This document shows, one piece after another, positions 6,113 to 34,202 of a stretch of DNA of 37,465 nt. The number at the start of each line of letters is the position of its first letter. The first letter of the stretch is position 1. Where the stretch lies: positions 1 to 37,465 of the forward strand of contig JAFZUS010000057.1 of the NCBI GenBank assembly GCA_017618275.1, in the 5' to 3' direction. Origin of the DNA: Prevotella sp. Its GTDB lineage: Bacteria > Bacteroidota > Bacteroidia > Bacteroidales > Bacteroidaceae. Below the pieces are notes generated by a model. It made no database searches. It saw only the letters and a list, made by a program, of their open reading frames with translations, and had not been told where the DNA came from. A program made the translations under genes and the position numbers.

Positions 6113-7507
6113 CTAAGGTGCAGGTTGCACTTGCTTGCGCTTGGCAGCCAGTTCCTTCAGTTTGTCCTTGCCCTTGAAAGCAAACACCCAAATCAGGAAT
6201 CCGGCAAGAACCAGCAGGGCGATACCGAGCAGCGGACGATAGAAGAGCCAAGCCAAGGCAATAACAATCAGCGACCAGACGATACCAATCACGGTACATA
6301 CGACACCCACGCCCCATCCGAAGATATTGGCAATGAATGGCACCACCTTGAGGATGGTCTCCAGGAAGCCGAAGATACCCTTTAGACCTGCAATGACAAG
6401 CATCACACCAAGGATGCGGAGAGCCCAGAGGATCATGTTGTTTGCCTCTTTCTCAGCATCGATAATCTCATCGCCACTCTTCTTACCCATCACAAGCGTC
6501 TGGAAACGCTTGCCGTTCTTAGCCTTGTAGGGTTTGAAGGAGTCACCTTCGACTACAGCCATCACCGTCACCTTGGCAGGAACGACAATCTCGAAGGTTA
6601 CACGTACATCACCCACCTCAGGCGATCCAGGCACGCGTCCGAAGTAGAGTACGTTGCTGGCCTGGTGGACATACTGCAAGTCCTTTTTGTTTTCGGCATT
6701 GGCCATCGACTTGACGATAGAGTCGTTGACAGCCTGCAATGAATCGAGCACAGCCCTGGCAGAGTCTGAGAGCAAAGCCCTGATAGAATCGGGGATGGCC
6801 GGCTGTGGAGTCGGCTGCTGGGTGGGCTGCTGCTGGATGCTCTTCTGCACGCCATAGAAACGCTCGTAAGCAGCCTGGGTGCTCTTGTCGAACTGCGCCA
6901 GCAGATCTTCGCTAATGGCCAGGTCGAGGCCCTCACGAGAAGAAATGCTGTGGATAAGGCTCTCGCTCAATTTATAGGCACCGAAGGAGACGTTCTCAGC
7001 ATACTGCTCAGCCTCATCGATGGTGGTCAGCACCATGTTCTTGTTCTGATAGGCAGGATCCTTGAACTGACTCGACTGCACAGGGCTCGACACCCACTGC
7101 TTACTATAAGTATAGGTGGTGGTGGTCACCTGCTTACCACCGAGTTTGTCCTCACTCTTGCTCTCAGAATGTTCCACCCATTGGTAGTACTCTACCGTGC
7201 GACGAAGAGCGATTGCCTTGGCACCGACGCCGAACTGGGCATCAGAGAGGGAATCCTCGGTGGTGGCCATTGCTGTACCACAAATCAGTTCGCCTTCAAG
7301 AGAGGCATCCTTCTTGTTGGGGTTCTCCATCTCCACGTAGGCATTACCTGCCTCGTCGAGCATCTTTTCCGTCTTCACGGCACGTCCCTCATTCCACCAG
7401 AGGAGTGCCGTAGCAAGGCAAAAGATGATAAACCCAGATCCGATACTCTTGAACGAGCGTCCCACGCGCGTTCCATAACCTGTTGTTGTTGTTTCTGTAA
7501 AAGCCAT
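6113..7507 (-). CDS. TMEM43-family membrane protein
   Basis: This 464-residue protein belongs to the TMEM43/DUF1625 family. It has one hydrophobic segment near residues 22-40 (FIIFCLATALLWWNEGRAV; the WWNEGRAV motif is a family hallmark). A long loop contains YYQWVEHSESKSED and YTYSKQW, typical of the family. Three or four closely spaced membrane segments lie in the last ~110 residues (including LGVMLVIAGLKGIFGFLETI, then VVCTVIGIVWSLIVIALAWL), before a basic K/R/Q-rich tail. A Gln/Pro-rich, low-complexity stretch of about 230-255 is probably a linker. The animal homologue LUMA is an ER/nuclear envelope protein; the bacterial function is unknown. It is the last gene of the minus-strand run and is separated from DUF5020 by about 100 bases that include the CCTAGG repeat array, so co-transcription is uncertain. 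Confidence 0.8.
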   Translation of the reverse strand: MAFTETTTTGYGTRVGRSFKSIGSGFIIFCLATALLWWNEGRAVKTEKMLDEAGNAYVEMENPNKKDASLEGELICGTAMATTEDSLSDAQFGVGAKAIALRRTVEYYQWVEHSESKSEDKLGGKQVTTTTYTYSKQWVSSPVQSSQFKDPAYQNKNMVLTTIDEAEQYAENVSFGAYKLSESLIHSISSREGLDLAISEDLLAQFDKSTQAAYERFYGVQKSIQQQPTQQPTPQPAIPDSIRALLSDSARAVLDSLQAVNDSIVKSMANAENKKDLQYVHQASNVLYFGRVPGSPEVGDVRVTFEIVVPAKVTVMAVVEGDSFKPYKAKNGKRFQTLVMGKKSGDEIIDAEKEANNMILWALRILGVMLVIAGLKGIFGFLETILKVVPFIANIFGWGVGVVCTVIGIVWSLIVIALAWLFYRPLLGIALLVLAGFLIWVFAFKGKDKLKELAAKRKQVQPAP

Positions 7508-7550: not shown

Positions 7551-7613
7551 TAGGATTACCTAGGACTACCTAGGACCACCTAGGATTGCCTAGGATTATC
7601 TAGGATTATCTAG
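7551..7613. repeat. CCTAGG repeat array, six units, 10-bp period
   Basis: Six consecutive 10-bp units of the form TAGGAYYRYC start at 7551 and repeat exactly every ten bases, ending in TAG. Four junctions give the palindrome CCTAGG (7559, 7569, 7579, 7589) and one gives TCTAGG (7599). The array lies between DUF5020 and the TMEM43 gene, and its last bases form the stop codon of DUF5020 (7610-7612). The same family occurs at 11013, 19952 and 33249. Confidence 0.92.
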
Positions 7614-8317
7614 AAGTTCCACTTCACGGCCAAGGTTGGATTGACAAAGAAGGTCTTGTCATTATACGTGTTGTAGATGAAGTTATTGCTGATCTCCACT
7701 TCACCGCCAATGCTGAAGTGTTCGGTGGCATTGAACCATATCTGGGGCTCAGAGAGGATGACCAGTTTGCCGTGACCATCAGGTTTCTCCTCGCGCCAGA
7801 AATCGATGAAGCCAGAGAAGGTGCATTTCCTGTTGGCAAACGTCGTACCCCACACACCCGTCAGTTGGGCACTGTTGAAGGCACAGTTGTGGTCGGAACT
7901 TTTGAAGAAACGCTTGTAAAGCAACTGAACCGACCATGTGGTGGAGAAGTCACCCGTATGACCATTGTAGGCGGCACCGACGAGGGCTGCCTGCTGATAA
8001 CTGCCAGAGCGGGAGCCCAGTCCGCCGTCGTACTCGACATGGGCTGCGAAGGGCGACTGTTTGCCGATGTTGAACTCACGCGAGATCTCCGTATAAGCAC
8101 CACGTGTCTCCTTACGACTCAAGTCGATATCGACGAAATAGTACCATGAACCCCAGTTATCGGCCTTGAACTGTTCGAGTGTGACGGTCACCTTCTGACG
8201 TCCGTCTTCCTCATCTGGATAGAGGTTACGACCGAAGTCGTAGTGCAACTGGATGTTCTGTGCCTGTGCGGCAAGGGCTGCTGCAGCCATCACCGCGATT
8301 GTTAGAATCTTTTTCAT
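7610..8317 (-). CDS. DUF5020 family outer-membrane protein (Tsx-like)
   Basis: This 235-residue protein starts with a clear signal peptide (MKKILTIAVMAAAALAAQAQ). The rest alternates in short amphipathic strands typical of a small beta-barrel and ends in VKWNF, a terminal aromatic residue as in outer-membrane barrels. I recognise it as DUF5020, which is related to nucleoside-specific Tsx-type channels. It lies 6 bases downstream of an NCS2 nucleobase permease, so the pair could carry nucleosides or bases across the outer and then the inner membrane; that link is inference. Its stop codon is built by the CCTAGG repeat array, so the array may have altered the original 3' end. Confidence 0.75.
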   Translation of the reverse strand: MKKILTIAVMAAAALAAQAQNIQLHYDFGRNLYPDEEDGRQKVTVTLEQFKADNWGSWYYFVDIDLSRKETRGAYTEISREFNIGKQSPFAAHVEYDGGLGSRSGSYQQAALVGAAYNGHTGDFSTTWSVQLLYKRFFKSSDHNCAFNSAQLTGVWGTTFANRKCTFSGFIDFWREEKPDGHGKLVILSEPQIWFNATEHFSIGGEVEISNNFIYNTYNDKTFFVNPTLAVKWNF

Positions 8318-9634: not shown

Positions 9635-10770
9635 ACGGATTTCTTTCTATTTATTAATAATTGATATATCATGCGTGCGGCTTCATCGGGTGCCTTCTTG
9701 TCGCCCAACCGCCTGATCACCTCATCATAGCCATCAAGCATTGCCTGACGATCCGGCCCGTCAAGAATTTTTCGGAGTTCCGTCTTGATATTAGCCACGG
9801 AAAAGGTGTCTGCCACAAGTTCGGGCGCTACATCCCTGTCAGCGATGAGGTTGACCAGTGAGATGGATTTCACCTGGAGAAAATGCCGGCGCAGGAAACT
9901 GAAAAGCCAGTGTAACGGAGTTTCATAGCACACTACCTGAGGCACGCGGAAGAGACAGGCTTCAAGGGTGGCGGTACCACTGGTGACTAAAGCAGCATGG
10001 GCATTTGCCAACAGGCGATAGGTCTGGTTGAAGACAATCTCTGCCTGGCTCCCCCGCATGAACGACTCGTAATAGGATGGTTCTATGCCCGGTGCGCCAG
10101 CCACCACGATGCGGTAGTCTTCTTTATACTCCTTCGTTGCTTCCAACATGGCTGGCAAGTTGTCCTTAATCTCTTGTTTCCTGGAGCCGGCCAACAAAGC
10201 AATGACTGGCCGCTGCCTATCGACTTCTGATTCCTGGCTCCTGTCCTCTAACCTCCTAAACTCCCTGACCTCATCGGCCGTGGGGTTACCCACGTAGTGG
10301 ATAGGATAATGATGTTTCCCTTCGAAGAACTCTACCTCGAAAGGCAAGATGGAAAAGAGTTCATCCACATCGCGCTTGATGTTCTTGATGCGATACTCCT
10401 TCCATGCCCAAATCTTAGGTGAGATGTAATAATATACGGGTATAGATGTCCGCGATTTTACATATTTTGCGATCTTCAGGTTAAAGCCCGGATAGTCAAC
10501 CAGAATCACACAGTCTGGCTGCCACTCCAGAATGTCGCGTTTACACATCCGCATATTACCAAGTATTGTTGGCAGATGGGTAAGCACAGGAACAAAGCCC
10601 ATATAGGCCAGTTCACGGTAATGACGGACACGCGTACCTCCCACTGTGGCCATCAGGTCGCCTCCGAAGAAACGGAACGTTGCCTCTTTGTCCATATTCT
10701 TCAACGACTGCATCAGATGTGATGCATGTAGATCGCCAGATGCCTCGCCTACAATGAGATAATACTTCAT
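9631..10770 (-). CDS. lpxB: Lipid-A-disaccharide synthase
   Basis: This 379-residue protein has the family's usual length. It joins UDP-2,3-diacylglucosamine and lipid X to form the tetra-acyl disaccharide of lipid A at the inner face of the cytoplasmic membrane. Diagnostic sequence includes the start YYLIVGEASGDLHASHL, the FFGGD motif, VDYPGFNLKIAKY, YYISPKIWAWK and the C-domain GSRKQEI nucleotide-sugar binding loop, followed by TSGTATLEACLF. It overlaps both neighbours by 4 bases (ATGA with surE upstream and with the permease downstream). The surE-lpxB order next to parA is common in Bacteroidetes. Nothing is missing. Confidence 0.96.
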   Translation of the reverse strand: MKYYLIVGEASGDLHASHLMQSLKNMDKEATFRFFGGDLMATVGGTRVRHYRELAYMGFVPVLTHLPTILGNMRMCKRDILEWQPDCVILVDYPGFNLKIAKYVKSRTSIPVYYYISPKIWAWKEYRIKNIKRDVDELFSILPFEVEFFEGKHHYPIHYVGNPTADEVREFRRLEDRSQESEVDRQRPVIALLAGSRKQEIKDNLPAMLEATKEYKEDYRIVVAGAPGIEPSYYESFMRGSQAEIVFNQTYRLLANAHAALVTSGTATLEACLFRVPQVVCYETPLHWLFSFLRRHFLQVKSISLVNLIADRDVAPELVADTFSVANIKTELRKILDGPDRQAMLDGYDEVIRRLGDKKAPDEAARMIYQLLINRKKSV

Positions 10771-11549
10771 AAGTCCCAGGATTTGATTTGATCCATCGCC
10801 TGATAGGCTGTCACATCAATCTGTGTCGGCGTAATGGCCACATAGCCATGTGCCAAAGCCCAGTTGTCAGTATCCTCAGCCTCTGGCTCGTCATTCTGAT
10901 ATTGTCCCACCATCCACCAATAATCATAGCCACGGGGGTGATGACATTTCGTCACCTCATTGTACCAGGTGCCGTGCGCCATCCGACAGACACGCACGCC
11001 TTTATAGGTAGTCCTAGGATCTCCTAGAATTAATGGGAAATTCACATTCAGGCAAACACCCAAGGGGAGGCCTTCACGGAGCACAAGCTCCGTAATCTGG
11101 CAGATGAGAGACCGAAGCGGCTGGAAGTCTGCATCATCTCGATGGTCGCACAGGGAGAATGCCACAGATGGGATATATTTCATACAGCCCTCAAAGGTCA
11201 CGCCCATCGTACCACTGTAATGTGTATTAACCGAGCCATTATCGCCGTGGTTGATACCGCCGATGACCATATCAGGCTTGCGCGGGACAATCTCCGCCAA
11301 TGCCAACTTCACGCAATCAACAGGTGTCCCGTTGCAGGACCATATTTCCACGCCTTGACGCTTCTCACGGCAATTCAGTCGCAGCGGCGTAGTGGCAGAA
11401 AAGGCACAGGAATAGCCACTTCGTGCTTCTTCCGGTGCACAGACGATGATATCTCCCATGCCAGAAAGCATCTCAACCAAGTCGTTAATCCCTTTTGCCT
11501 GATACCCGTCGTCGTTAGAAATGAGTAGTAATGGTCGTTTAATTTCCAT
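10767..11549 (-). CDS. surE: 5'/3'-nucleotidase SurE
   Basis: This 260-residue protein is a metal-dependent phosphatase that removes phosphate from nucleoside 5'- and 3'-monophosphates. The metal site DD pair is in LLISNDDGYQAKGI near the start, followed by APEEARSGYSC, NGTPVDCVKLAL, GINHGDN and YSGTMGVTFEG, all conserved. An unusual peptide ILGDPRTT sits at about residues 174-181, directly after CLNVNFP, where homologues normally go straight to a short loop and then KGVRVCR. Its DNA (11013-11028) is a two-unit copy of the CCTAGG repeat, so the loop looks like an in-frame repeat insertion. First gene of the surE-lpxB-permease-DUF5020 unit. Confidence 0.95.
   Translation of the reverse strand: MEIKRPLLLISNDDGYQAKGINDLVEMLSGMGDIIVCAPEEARSGYSCAFSATTPLRLNCREKRQGVEIWSCNGTPVDCVKLALAEIVPRKPDMVIGGINHGDNGSVNTHYSGTMGVTFEGCMKYIPSVAFSLCDHRDDADFQPLRSLICQITELVLREGLPLGVCLNVNFPLILGDPRTTYKGVRVCRMAHGTWYNEVTKCHHPRGYDYWWMVGQYQNDEPEAEDTDNWALAHGYVAITPTQIDVTAYQAMDQIKSWDL
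11013..11028. repeat. CCTAGG repeat, two units inside surE
   Basis: CCTAGG at 11013-11018 and CCTAGA at 11023-11028, spaced 10 bases apart and joined by ATCT. On the coding (minus) strand this gives ILGDPR in a surface-loop position of SurE. Confidence 0.7.
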
Positions 11550-18157: not shown

Positions 18158-20833
18158 CTATAGGCTTGCTAATTCCACCACCTTATCGACGGCAGCAGAA
18201 AGGCCATCCACATTCTTACCGCCAGCCTGAGCGAAGTGGGGTTGACCACCGCCACCACCCTGAATAAGTTTGGCAGCCTCGCGTACCATCTGTCCGGCAT
18301 TAAGCCCATGATCGCTGACCATATCATCACTCATCATGATAGAGAGTTGGGGTTTATTGTCGGCATGGGTACCCAGTACACAAAGCAGAGAACTGTCTAC
18401 GGCTGCACGAATCTTGAAGGCAAGGTCCTTGGCGGCAGCAGGATTCATGGGCAATACAGCAGTTACCACCTTTACGCCATTCACCTCGCGGGCCTTCCCA
18501 ACCAACTGTTTAGCGGCACGCTCAACAGCCTGAGCCTGGAATCCCTCGATTTCTTTCTTCATGGAATCATGCTCGTCGATGTATTTCCTGATAACACCTT
18601 GCAGGTCCTTGGCATTGTTGAAGAATGCCTTGACAGCCTTCAGCATATCCTCCGTCTGATACAGCAGTTCCTCGCATTCCCTGCCGGTCTTGGCCTCAAT
18701 ACGACGGATACCGGCAGCAACAGAACTTTCAGAGATAATCTTGAAGAATCCTATCTTACCCGTAGCCTTGGCGTGGATACCGCCACAGAACTCACACGAA
18801 GGTCCGAAGCGAACCACTCGCACCTTATCGCCGTATTTCTCACCGAAAAGGGCAATGGCGCCTAGTTTTTTGGCCTCCTCAAAGGGTACGTCACGATGTT
18901 CGTCGAGTTGGATATCCTGACGGATCATATCGTTTACCATCCGTTCCACCTCACGGATCTGCTCGTCATTCACCTTCTCAAAGTGAGAGAAGTCGAAACG
19001 CAGCGTATCAGGCGATACAAACGAGCCCTTCTGTTCCACGTGGTCGCCCAGAACCTGCTTCAGGGCATAGTCGAGCAGGTGGGTAGCGGTATGATTGGCG
19101 GCAGAAGCATCACGTTTGTCTGTGTCCACACAGGCCATGAACTGGGCCGTAGGATCCTTCGGCAACTGCTTCACGATGTGTACCGTCTGGTTGTTCTCAC
19201 GCTTGGAATCGATGATCTCGATGGTCTCGGCCTCATTGCAGATCACGCCACAATCGCCAACCTGACCACCCATCTCGCCATAGAACGGGGTATAGTCGAG
19301 TACAAGTTCATAGAACTCGTTCTTCTTCTGCGTCACCTTACGATAACGGAGAATACGACACTCGTATTCCGTATAGTCATAGCCCACGAACTGCTGTTCA
19401 CCTGCGGCGAGTTCCGTCCAGTCGGAGTTCTCGACAGCAGCAGCATTACGGGCACGTTCCTTCTGTTTCTGCATTTCAACGTTAAACTGCGCCTCATCCA
19501 CTGTAAAGCCGTTCTCACGACAAATGAGTTCCGTCAGGTCGAGAGGGAAACCGTAGGTATCGAACAGACGGAAAGCCTGAACACCATCCAACTCAGTCTT
19601 TCCCTGTCCCTTCAGGTCGTCCATGGCTTTGTCAAGCAGGGAGATACCCTTGTCAAGGGTACGCAGGAATGCATCCTCTTCTTCTTTGATCACCTTGGTG
19701 ATAAGTTGCTGCTGAGCCTTCAACTCTGGGAAGGCATCACCCATTTCAGCCACCAAAGTAGGCACAAGTTTATGCAGGAAACCGTCTTTCTGTCCGAGGA
19801 AGGTATAGGCATAGCGCACAGCACGGCGCAGGATACGACGGATGACGTAGCCCGCCTTCGCATTCGAAGGCAACTGTCCGTCAGCAATCGAGAAACTGAC
19901 AGCACGAAGATGGTCGGCGCAGACACGCATAGCCACATTGATCTCATCCTGCCTAGGATCACCTAGGTTATTCCTAGGATTGCCTAGGTTTTCTTCCTCA
20001 AAGGTCGTATATTTCAGGCCGGTGATAGCCTCCTCAGCCTTGATGATGGGCTGGAAGATGTCAGTATCATAGTTGGAGTGCTTGCCTTGCAGCATACGGA
20101 CAAGGCGCTCAAAACCCATACCCGTATCAATCACGTTCATCGAGAGTTTCTCGAGAGAACCGTCAGCCTTGCGATTGAACTGCATAAACACGAGGTTCCA
20201 AATCTCAATCACCTGAGGATCGTCCTGATTCACCAGTTCGCGACCACTCTTTCCGCTGGCTGCACGCTGCTCAGGGGTACGAGAATCCACATGAATCTCC
20301 GAGCAAGGACCACAAGGACCCGTATCGCCCATCTCCCAGAAATTATCGTGCTTGTTGCCATTGATGATGTGATCCTCAGGCACATGCTTGGCCCAATACT
20401 TGGCAGCCTCATCATCGCGAGGGATATTCTCTTCGGGCGAACCCTCGAAGACGGTTACATACAGATTCTCCGGATTCAGTTTCAGCACATCCACGAGATA
20501 TTCCCACGCCATATCAATGGCACCCTCCTTAAAATAGTCGCCAAACGACCAGTTGCCGAGCATCTCGAACATCGTGTGGTGATACGTATCATGACCCACC
20601 TCTTCCAGATCGTTGTGCTTACCACTCACGCGGAGGCACTTCTGTGTATCGGCACGGCGGCGCGGCTCCGGGTCGCGTGTACCTAATATAATATCCTTCC
20701 ACTGGTTCATACCAGCGTTGGTAAACATCAGTGTGGGGTCATCCTTGATGACCATCGGGGCTGAGGGCACGATAGCGTGCTGTTTCGACTCAAAGAACTT
20801 CTTGAATGAGTCGCGAATCTCGTTTGCTGTCAT
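18158..20833 (-). CDS. alaS: Alanyl-tRNA synthetase
   Basis: This 891-residue class II synthetase charges tRNA-Ala. The catalytic core shows [36 protein letters not shown] (positions partly recalled as the family's signature [10 protein letters not shown]), [12 protein letters not shown] and the motif 3 region [16 protein letters not shown]. The editing domain has [11 protein letters not shown] and [14 protein letters not shown], the conserved zinc-type His/Cys set. The C-Ala end has the [14 protein letters not shown] segment. It is somewhat longer than many bacterial forms. Part of the excess is at about residues 282-294 ([13 protein letters not shown]), encoded by four CCTAGG repeat units just before the conserved [14 protein letters not shown] standard promoter precedes it. 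Confidence 0.96.
19952..19988. repeat. CCTAGG repeat array, four units inside alaS
   Basis: CCTAGG occurs at 19952, 19962, 19973 and 19983 (spacings 10, 11, 10). The single 11-base step keeps the frame reading [13 protein letters not shown]. It sits in a poorly conserved linker of AlaRS ahead of the [10 protein letters not shown] helix. Confidence 0.9.
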
Positions 20834-31915: not shown

Positions 31916-33229
31916 CTATTTCTGACGGATAAATACATTGATAGGGGTTCCTGTCAGTGTCCAATTCTCACGAATCTTATTCTCTAAGAAGCGCTTGTAC
32001 GGTTCCTTTACATACTGCGGCAGGTTGGCATAGAACACGAAGGTGGGTATCTGTGTATCTGGTACCTGCGACACGTATTTGATCTTAATATATTTGCCCT
32101 TGATGGAAGGAGGAGGGAAGGCCTCAATCAGGGGCAGCATTACTTCATTCAACTTCGTGGTTCCAATACGGGCCTTACGGTTCAGATAGACCTGCTTTGC
32201 TGTTTCCAGTACCTTGAAGATACGTTGTTTCGTCAAAGCCGAGGCAAAGATAATGGGAAAATCCACAAATGGCGCCATACGATTACGGATAGCGTTTTCG
32301 AAAGTATCGATGACTATTTGTGATTTGTCCTCTACCAAATCCCACTTGTTAACAACGACCACCAGACTCTTGTTGTTCTTCTGAATCAACTGGAAGATAT
32401 TCATATCCTGCGCCTCTATGCCACGAGTAGCATCAATCATCAAGATGCAGACATCGCTATTCTCAATGGCACGAATAGAACGCATCACACTATAGAACTC
32501 CAGATCCTCCGTAACTTTATTCTTACGACGGATACCCGCAGTATCCACCAGATAGAAATCGAAACCGAACTTGTCATAACGGGTATAAATGGAATCACGG
32601 GTCGTACCTGCAATTTCTGTCACGATGTTACGTTCCTCTCCGATGAAGGCATTGATGAGACTCGACTTTCCTGCATTCGGACGACCGACAACGGCAAAAC
32701 GGGGGATACCTTCCTCCAGATTATCGCCGCCCTTCTCAGGTAAAACCTCCAAAACCTTATCGAGCAAATCACCCGTACCACTACCGGTGGCAGCACTGAT
32801 ACAATATGGATCACCTAATCCAAGTTGATAGAATTCGTACTGATCATAGAGATTCTTGTTGTCGTCAGCCTTATTGGCCACAAGAATAACAGGCAATTTG
32901 GCACGACGAAGGATTTGGGCCACATCCATATCCCAGTCTGTCACACCGTTCTTGATGTCACAAAGGAAGAGCACCAAATCTGCCTCCTCAGTAGCGATGA
33001 TCACCTGCTTACGAATTTCCTCTTCGAAGATATCATCCGAGTTGACCACCCAACCGCCTGTATCAACGACAGAGAACTCTCGCCCGTTCCATTCACATTT
33101 ACCATATTGACGGTCACGTGTGGTACCGGCCTCGTCGCTGACGATGGCCTGACGGCTCTTCGTCAAACGGTTAAACAGAGTGGACTTTCCCACATTCGGG
33201 CGTCCTACGATTGCCACCAAATTTGCCAT
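31916..33229 (-). CDS. der: Ribosome biogenesis GTPase Der
   Basis: This 437-residue protein has the double-GTPase layout unique to Der (EngA). Domain 1 has GRPNVGKST (9-17), DTGGW and ANKAD; domain 2 has GRPNAGKSS (about 182), DTAGI and VNKWD. A C-terminal KH-like domain follows ([20 protein letters not shown]). It acts in late assembly of the 50S ribosomal subunit. It lies downstream of era, separated by 64 bases that contain four CCTAGG repeat units, and one base upstream of the small lipoprotein gene. Confidence 0.96.
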
Positions 33230-33248
33230 ACGCTTCTATTTTAGTATT

Positions 33249-33290
33249 TCTAGGATTTCCTAGGATCACCTAGGATTACCTAGGACTTCC
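33249..33290. repeat. CCTAGG repeat array, four units between era and der
   Basis: TCTAGG at 33249, then CCTAGG at 33259, 33269 and 33279, at an exact 10-base period (units TAGGATTTCC, TAGGATCACC, TAGGATTACC, TAGGACTTCC). The array fills most of the era-der gap and lies in the likely transcript between era's stop and der's start. Confidence 0.92.
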
Positions 33291-33293
33291 TCT

Positions 33294-34202
33294 CTAATCT
33301 ACATTATACCCAAAATGATTCAATTCTCTCTCAGACGAACGCCAGTCCTTATCCACCTTCACGAATACCTCCAGAAAGATGGGCTTGCCAAAGAATCTCT
33401 CCAGTGACTTCCGAGCCTCTGTACTGACTTTCTTCAATGCAACGCCCTGATGTCCGATGATAATACCTTTCTGAGAGTCACGTTCCACATAGATGATTGC
33501 ATTGATATGAATATGCTTCTCGTCCTCTTTGAAACGCTCCACGACAACCTCCACACTATAAGGAATCTCCTTGTCGTAATAGAGAAGAATCTTCTCACGG
33601 ATAATCTCGGAAACAAAGAAACGAGCAGGTTTGTCCGTCAACTGATCCTTATCAAAATAGGCAGGACTCTCAGGCAAAAGTTCCTGAATACGCTTTAACA
33701 GCATATCCACGCCAAACTTGTTCTTGGCAGAAATAGGCAGGATCTCAGCATTGGGTAGCAGAGTATGCCACTTCTCAACAATCGTGTTAAGCGATTGTTG
33801 AGCCCCATTAGTTCCATTAATCCCATTCCCCAACTCATCAATCTTGTTAATCAAGAGCAGCACAGGAATCATCATCTTCTGGACTTTCCCCAAAAAATCC
33901 ATGTTCTTTTCCGGATTCTCAACGACATCCGTGACGTACAACAACACATCAGCATCCTGCAAGGCCGACTCAGAGAAAGCCAGCATCGATTCTTGCAACT
34001 TGTAATTCGGTTTCAGCACACCTGGAGTGTCAGAAAAAACAATCTGCATCTCAGGTGTATTGACAATACCCATAATGCGATGGCGTGTAGTCTGAGCCTT
34101 GAAGGTTGCAATTGAAATACGCTCACCAACCAGTTGGTTCATGAGCGTACTTTTACCGACGTTGGGATTTCCAACGATATTGACGAATCCTGCCTTATGC
34201 AT
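33294..34202 (-). CDS. era: GTPase Era
   Basis: I chose ATG 34202 (302 residues, [20 protein letters not shown]) because family members start here. Upstream in-frame ATGs at 34214 and 34250 fall deeper inside fabH. G1 is GNPNVGKS (11-18), G3 is DTPG, G4 is NKID. The C-terminal KH domain shows [20 protein letters not shown] and [10 protein letters not shown]-like sequence ([20 protein letters not shown]). It binds the 3' end of 16S rRNA and aids 30S maturation. It overlaps fabH by 8 bases. Confidence 0.95.

Follow-up and report, generated by a model that had tools for sequence, protein, structure and literature searches.

Short tandem CCTAGG arrays dispersed in Prevotella genomes and an associated family of S23/Avd-fold proteins

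CCTAGG arrays in the window and in other genomes

The window, that is, the whole stretch of 37,465 nucleotides analysed here (Prevotella sp., contig JAFZUS010000057.1), carries four arrays of short units joined by the palindrome CCTAGG, and all four were confirmed at the coordinates given in a preliminary description. The first array (7551..7613), with approximately six TAGGN4CC units, lies between two genes of the minus strand (7610-8317 and 6113-7507), and its last partial unit forms the TAG stop codon of gene 7610-8317. The second, with two units (11005..11028), and the third, with four units (19952..19988), are located in frame within a surE-like gene (10767-11549, minus strand) and an alaS-like gene (18158-20833, minus strand), respectively, so that two of the four loci (previously listed as 11013 and 19952) are within coding genes. 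The fourth, with approximately five units (33242..33290), separates an era-like gene, which stops at 33294, from a der-like gene, which starts at 33229, both on the minus strand. The four gene names are those we presume from recognition of the sequences. A set of tandem 21-bp repeats was also seen at 785-882 (approximately 3.5 copies), the sequence of which is unrelated to the CCTAGG arrays.

The window contained 12 copies of CCTAGG, compared with a mean of 5.7 and a maximum of 11 in dinucleotide shuffles, and 7 neighbouring pairs exactly 10 bp apart, compared with 0 in 300 Markov shuffles. In the source genome (G000; 3.6 Mb in 213 contigs), CCTAGGN4CCTAGG was found 101 times and its reversed control 0 times, with 239 CCTAGG sites in total. 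The first 50 of the 101 pairs formed 18 arrays, from which roughly 35-40 arrays per genome were extrapolated; the hundreds per genome proposed previously were too high, G000 having tens. The preliminary description had named two outcomes that would speak against a dispersed family, namely that these were the only copies or that CCTAGG was no more frequent or clustered than by chance, and neither was obtained.

Among 398 genomes of the genus, CCTAGG pairs were present in 60 (largest counts 101, 89, 54, and 42), and 40 genomes representing other families within the order had no such pairs. In 12 whole genomes with arrays, pair spacing was 10 bp in 484 cases, 9 bp in 30, 11 bp in 32, and 12 bp in 1 (the last two tallied by hand). 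These deviating pairs, together with steps of 10, 11, and 10 bp in the alaS-like gene of the window, show that the step is not the strict 10 bp that had been claimed. Across 848 kb of array loci, a set selected via the 10-bp pattern, the distance between consecutive CCTAGG sites was 10 bp in 384 cases, 20 bp in 34, 9 bp in 8, and 11 bp in 4, and nine control palindromes combined gave one pair at 10 bp in the same loci. This count excludes just five loci with non-Bacteroidetes titles (L017, L046, L058, L067, and L072). Array edges were half sites (xTAGG ... CCTAx); because the inner half site (TAGG at the left edge, CCTA at the right edge) was kept at the edges of 137 runs and the outer letters had decayed, the unit is best written as TAGG-N4-CCTA, with the overlap being TA.

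A scan of named genomes gave at least 114 loci, mostly in records of Prevotellaceae and Bacteroidales, many of them from herbivore gut (80 titles); the counts of array placement and those after them exclude the five loci above and three more with GC-rich context (L096, L099, and L102). The matches listed include two isolates with arrays, Prevotella communis E15-14 and Prevotellaceae bacterium HUN156, as well as five records whose titles name other phyla. In the CCTAGG tandems of those phyla (L058 from Actinomycetales, L046, L067, L072, and L017), spacers were usually identical or similar, and the first TAG of L058 looks like the stop codon of the preceding gene. Three CCTAGG units were also seen in 18 viral contigs. 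Other short repeats are dispersed in close relatives of G000, including ATGAGAA-type heptamers, GCATTGT-type units, and the AATAACCC dyad (L233 11767-11833, 12285-12317, and 10244-10275; L234 9915-9999), with many short matches.

Placement and evolution of the arrays

Placement was assessed with our own codon-based gene caller for 130 arrays (the named-genome loci and the window). Ninety-six were in tandem gaps, 18 in convergent gaps, 2 in divergent gaps, and 1 inside a gene, the remaining 13 being at a locus edge or without a neighbour. As background, gene pairs separated by 40 bp or more were 311 tandem, 41 convergent, and 52 divergent; divergent placement was found for 2 of 116 arrays versus 52 of 404 background pairs (p = 2e-4), and one of the two divergent cases is the surE array, misplaced since the caller had shortened that gene. 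Arrays in tandem gaps had a median distance of 8 bp to the stop codon upstream and of 50 bp to the following start codon, and 78 of 95 were closer to the stop. Stop codons within 40 bp of an array were TAG in 63 of 109 cases, compared with 79 of 458 elsewhere. Since three strict 10-bp units place TAG in all six frames, arrays within coding sequence need other steps; most of the 12 arrays called within genes have steps of 10+11 or 9+9 bp, with translations that read LGxPR..LGxPR or NPRxPR, although the share of non-10 steps is inflated by most of these loci having been fetched for such steps.

Among close relatives of G000, arrays at the same sites differed in presence and length. The 7551 array was present in G000 and G364 and absent in five other relatives; reading of its flanks by eye showed that the protein end was kept and the stop codon was changed from TAA to TAG. 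Arrays of differing length were found in surE of five of seven relatives (none in G262 and G013). In alaS, four units were present in G000, two in G364, and none in five other relatives, and the genes of G364 and G000 differed by a 21-bp in-frame step. The array between era and der was present in G000, G414, G392, and G159 and absent in G364, G262, and G013. In the era-der gap of G371 (L146), a CTAG array flanked by different letters and stepping by 9-10 bp was seen at the same place as that of the window.

Comparison of orthologous arrays showed identity at 1674 of 1724 core positions (97%) and 562 of 817 spacer positions (69%), with 1865 of 2098 identical in the 14-bp outer flanks; these counts are of alignable ordered pairs with both directions counted, and unit turnover inflates the spacer divergence. 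A repeat found genome-wide, with a core conserved while its spacers drift, fits the suggestion made earlier of a new short interspersed repeat. Identical spacers in neighbouring units were observed in 37 of 237 cases versus 4.6 in shuffles, indicating that units duplicate locally. In 26 spacer chains from G000, no three-spacer run was shared, and one two-spacer run was shared (0.94 expected), which indicates that the arrays are not recent copies of each other; copy-and-paste spread, tested in this way, is disfavoured. The multi-genome loci, orthologous loci included, had 34 shared two-spacer runs versus 18.8 in shuffles and 2 three-spacer runs versus 0.1, and orthology may be the cause.

Local duplication raises the possibility that the arrays are passive minisatellites, which arise by slippage and persist where harmless, the link to a gene (see below) being a by-product. 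Besides the identical neighbouring spacers, the avoidance of promoters and frames and the 21-bp in-frame step between the alaS genes agree with this explanation. Conservation limited to the core argues against it, and neutral slippage alone is disfavoured by the difference between core and spacer identity. Of the slippage origin proposed in the preliminary description, the duplication of units therefore stands, and slippage as the sole process, which would not conserve just the core, does not. Insertion of a miniature inverted-repeat element (MITE) was also considered and rejected: on inspection by eye, neither terminal inverted repeats nor a target-site duplication were seen at the era-der and 7551 empty sites, and 45-70 bp are replaced at the block site described below. 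CRISPR was rejected as well, as the units consist of a 6-bp core and a 4-bp spacer rather than repeats longer than 20 bp with long unique spacers.

A gene family bracketed by arrays

The 278 proteins encoded next to arrays fell into 215 clusters. The largest, with 17 entries compared with 4 for the next, was a four-helix-bundle family with an S23/Avd-like fold, NCBIfam TIGR04258; a gene between two arrays gives two entries, and 14 of the 17 come from nine loci. The G000 gene (G000:C79:16133-16795, outside the window) encodes approximately 220 residues, and the bracketed gene product matched TIGR04258 and TIGR02436, with both the family profile and the fold of S23 proteins. Gene and both arrays form a block (903 bp in G000) between two convergent genes in G000, G364, G414, and G392. 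In G159 and G262, the same neighbours are separated by 70 and 45 bp, respectively, with a terminator-like hairpin (by eye), and G013 has such a hairpin together with other sequence at this site. Array pairs numbered 101 in G000, 54 in G364, 89 in G414, and 21 in G392, versus 18, 7, and 2 in the three genomes without the block (p = 0.03). In G159, which lacks the block at the site and in which no close homolog was found, cores were intact in 10 of 14 cases versus 35 of 48 in G000, and so show no greater decay despite the missing block.

A protein search of the 398 genus genomes detected some family member in 225 and a close homolog (68-100% identity) in 25, the remainder being at most 61% identical. 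CCTAGG pairs were present in 22 of these 25 genomes versus 38 of the other 373 (p = 3e-17, nominal, as the genomes are related), a difference that a passive minisatellite does not account for. The three exceptions, G218 (whose gene is interrupted by an internal stop), G360, and G417, show other cores in the arrays beside the gene; of the 25 close-homolog genes, 20 have CTAG arrays at the locus and five another core. Four genomes that are 91-99% complete, G365, G019, G050, and G055, have 22, 15, 10, and 10 pairs, respectively, and no close homolog, so arrays can exist without the gene or with another one. G103 and G241 have CCTAGG pairs, yet the best homolog of each adjoins another core, and a further family gene of G000 (L414) has no evident array.

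Across the phylum, 50 of 395 genomes, one of them G000, had a TIGR04258 match, and none of the 14 control genomes did. No relatives of the protein were found in viral contigs or in a phage search, and a plasmid search gave one P. nigrescens replicon. At locus L355 (NZ_CP082843), from a named P. nigrescens isolate, a gene is annotated as encoding a four helix bundle suffix domain protein, and a CTAG array lies downstream of it. PADLOC gave no match, a sequence search for a solved structure gave none, and Foldseek gave no hit with E below 0.001 (best 0.059, 2gsc). To our knowledge, S23-fold proteins are widespread and have no known role outside retroelements. In literature other than subscription journals and bioRxiv, neither CCTAGG arrays in Prevotella nor the terms "four helix bundle suffix" and TIGR04258 were found. 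At seven Prevotella loci picked by their appearance (L279, L284, L289, L294, L300, L313, and L318), the gene is behind hsdS (six) or hsdM (one) of type I restriction systems, and in three it is also before hsdR; hsdR adjoins the TIGR04258 gene also in L031 and L118. In L318, the hsdM-like methylase upstream appears to owe its C-terminal tail to the array, with I-D-P-I-A-like residues repeated.

The flanks of 50 Prevotella family genes, inspected by eye, carry further cores in other branches of the family, namely CTATAG, ACTAGT, TCTAGA, CATAGG/CCTATG, GATAGG/CCTATC, CTGGG, and CCGG. Since some of the 468 control stretches from the same loci scored up to 40, their 99th percentile (24) was used as the threshold of periodicity; it was exceeded in the flanks of 46 of 50 Prevotella genes (17 on both sides) and in those of 15 of 28 genes from other classes of the phylum (2 on both sides), 13 of the 28 falling below it. 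In the latter, the best period was 9 bp in 25 of 28, and the cores included GTCCC, GTCCTAT, GATCGG, and GTGGAC, among others. Motifs were grouped into seven classes after flank inspection, 23 of 78 loci fitting none. On a 74-protein tree, which omits 4 of 78 proteins (stops or length) and has weak support on 30 of 71 inner branches, 53 rows required 9 changes of motif class, compared with a shuffled mean of 23.8 (minimum 19, 500 shuffles); for Prevotella alone, 43 rows required 6 changes versus 14.4 in shuffles (minimum 9). A weaker first test with raw top 6-mers showed that 4 of 23 cherries share a 6-mer (chance 0.6, highest shuffle 5). That motif class follows the protein tree also speaks against a passive minisatellite, which we regard as very improbable.

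If the motif beside a gene spreads, it should occur elsewhere in the same genome, and this prediction was tested in two single genomes, G386 and G610. In 400 kb of the complete genome G386, away from its two family genes (cores CTATAG and ACTAGT), CTATAG ranked first among 64 palindromes with 9 pairs spaced 8-11 bp, and ACTAGT gave 1 pair. A 400-kb sample of G016, a genome without a family match, contained no CTATAG pairs, and no palindrome exceeded 2 pairs there. For G610, from another class, 400 kb contained 27 pairs of GTGGAC, the core beside one gene, some of them in that gene's own flanks, with two further arrays, one at an upstream stop and one 43 bp behind another stop; GTCCCA gave 7 pairs, part of them next to its own gene, and GATCGG, which belongs to a third gene, just 2.

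A structural element was considered, in which the arms form hairpins in RNA or extruded DNA and structure, not sequence, is kept. CCTAGG-N4-CCTAGG is a perfect stem-loop, and non-palindromic cores are often arranged in head-to-head arrays (L295, L297, and L416). Where both neighbouring cores were variants, they were identical in 12 of 22 pairs and complementary in 2 of 22, which disfavours hairpin pairing and makes this explanation improbable.

The position of the arrays could also point to host regulation, in which the arrays serve as sites in 3'-UTRs or between cistrons where the protein acts on transcript stability, termination, or supercoiling, and are kept by selection on target genes. 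The short distance behind stops, the conserved core, the arrays flanking the partner gene itself, and the terminator-like hairpin in place of the block in relatives lacking it are in agreement with such a role. Against it, array presence varies among close relatives at the same gene, arrays also occur in frame within genes, the adjoining genes include no other large family, and at era-der and 7551 the array-free relatives have no replacement terminator (by eye). We therefore consider host regulation unlikely.

Proposed system and comparison with known systems

It is highly probable that the gene, the motif, and the dispersed arrays belong to one system. Recognition of the motif by the protein would be the simplest cause of their co-variation. 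The S23/Avd-fold protein may recognise a short motif, palindromic in most cases and CCTAGG in this branch, whose copies follow one another at roughly one helical turn, with the protein's gene located between arrays of that motif. Binding could be to the motif as DNA, or as RNA, which was considered because nearly all arrays are in transcribed stretches. The other arrays would be dispersed over sites where the damage is small, directly downstream of stop codons or, inside permissive parts of genes, in frame; they would enlarge in place through tandem duplication and would persist since bound cores are kept. The system would be mainly selfish, any effect on 3' ends being at most secondary. For this statement as a whole (recognition, growth in place, and a mainly selfish nature), we estimate a probability of about 0.6. 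The phased protein-binding array proposed in the preliminary description gains from a protein family tied to the repeat, with the binding itself being putative. The reverse-transcription process named there received no direct support, the one connection being that the partner protein has the same fold as Avd, which is an accessory protein in diversity-generating retroelements.

A broader reading, which we put forward tentatively and at slightly less than even odds, is that these elements represent a new class of self-spreading repeats in Bacteroidota and their relatives, in which S23/Avd-fold proteins with their own motifs, each with its gene set between arrays of its motif, seed and enlarge arrays behind other genes, and that specificity diversifies along the protein tree, giving a natural protein-motif code (CCTAGG, CTATAG, ACTAGT, TCTAGA, CATAGG, GTCCC, and GTGGAC, among others). 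One branch of the S23 fold gains a concrete, testable partner sequence and, if the reading is true, small proteins with branch-specific motifs would provide a natural set for studying the evolution of nucleic-acid specificity. The system would also account for a type of 3'-end repeat in rumen Prevotella and for in-frame repeats entering essential genes such as alaS.

The operator and centromere arrays of MetJ, ParR, and BldC consist of few sites, in promoters or plasmid centromeres. The arrays described here resemble them in having tandem sites about one turn apart and variable in number, and differ in comprising tens of sites behind and inside genes. Avd of diversity-generating retroelements has approximately 9% identity to the TIGR04258 protein. 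S23 proteins (TIGR02436, PF05635) share its fold with weak sequence similarity, and the TIGR04258 protein has an extra suffix domain and a C-terminal helix. The S23 genes of 23S rRNA intervening sequences are located in an element called selfish in one study (PMC4990558). Unlike that element, the present loci are array-bracketed and lie between protein genes, as judged by the called neighbours at most of the 50 Prevotella loci.

The closest parallel is found in REP sequences, described in PMC3733652 as extragenic repeats behind tandem or convergent genes, near 3' ends, that supply TAG stops and are sometimes in frame. Placement behind tandem or convergent genes was observed for 114 of 116 intergenic arrays; they also give TAG stops and in-frame copies, and a partner gene adjoins the repeats. 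In contrast, the arrays consist of 9-10 bp tandem units with a free spacer, whereas REP is a 20-40-bp palindrome with a GTAG/CGTC tag; the array-bracketed gene encodes an S23/Avd-fold protein, whereas RAYT is a tyrosine transposase; and no array of G000 is a copy of another. Since both the repeat structure and the partner protein differ, this system is REP-like and works like REP/RAYT without being one.
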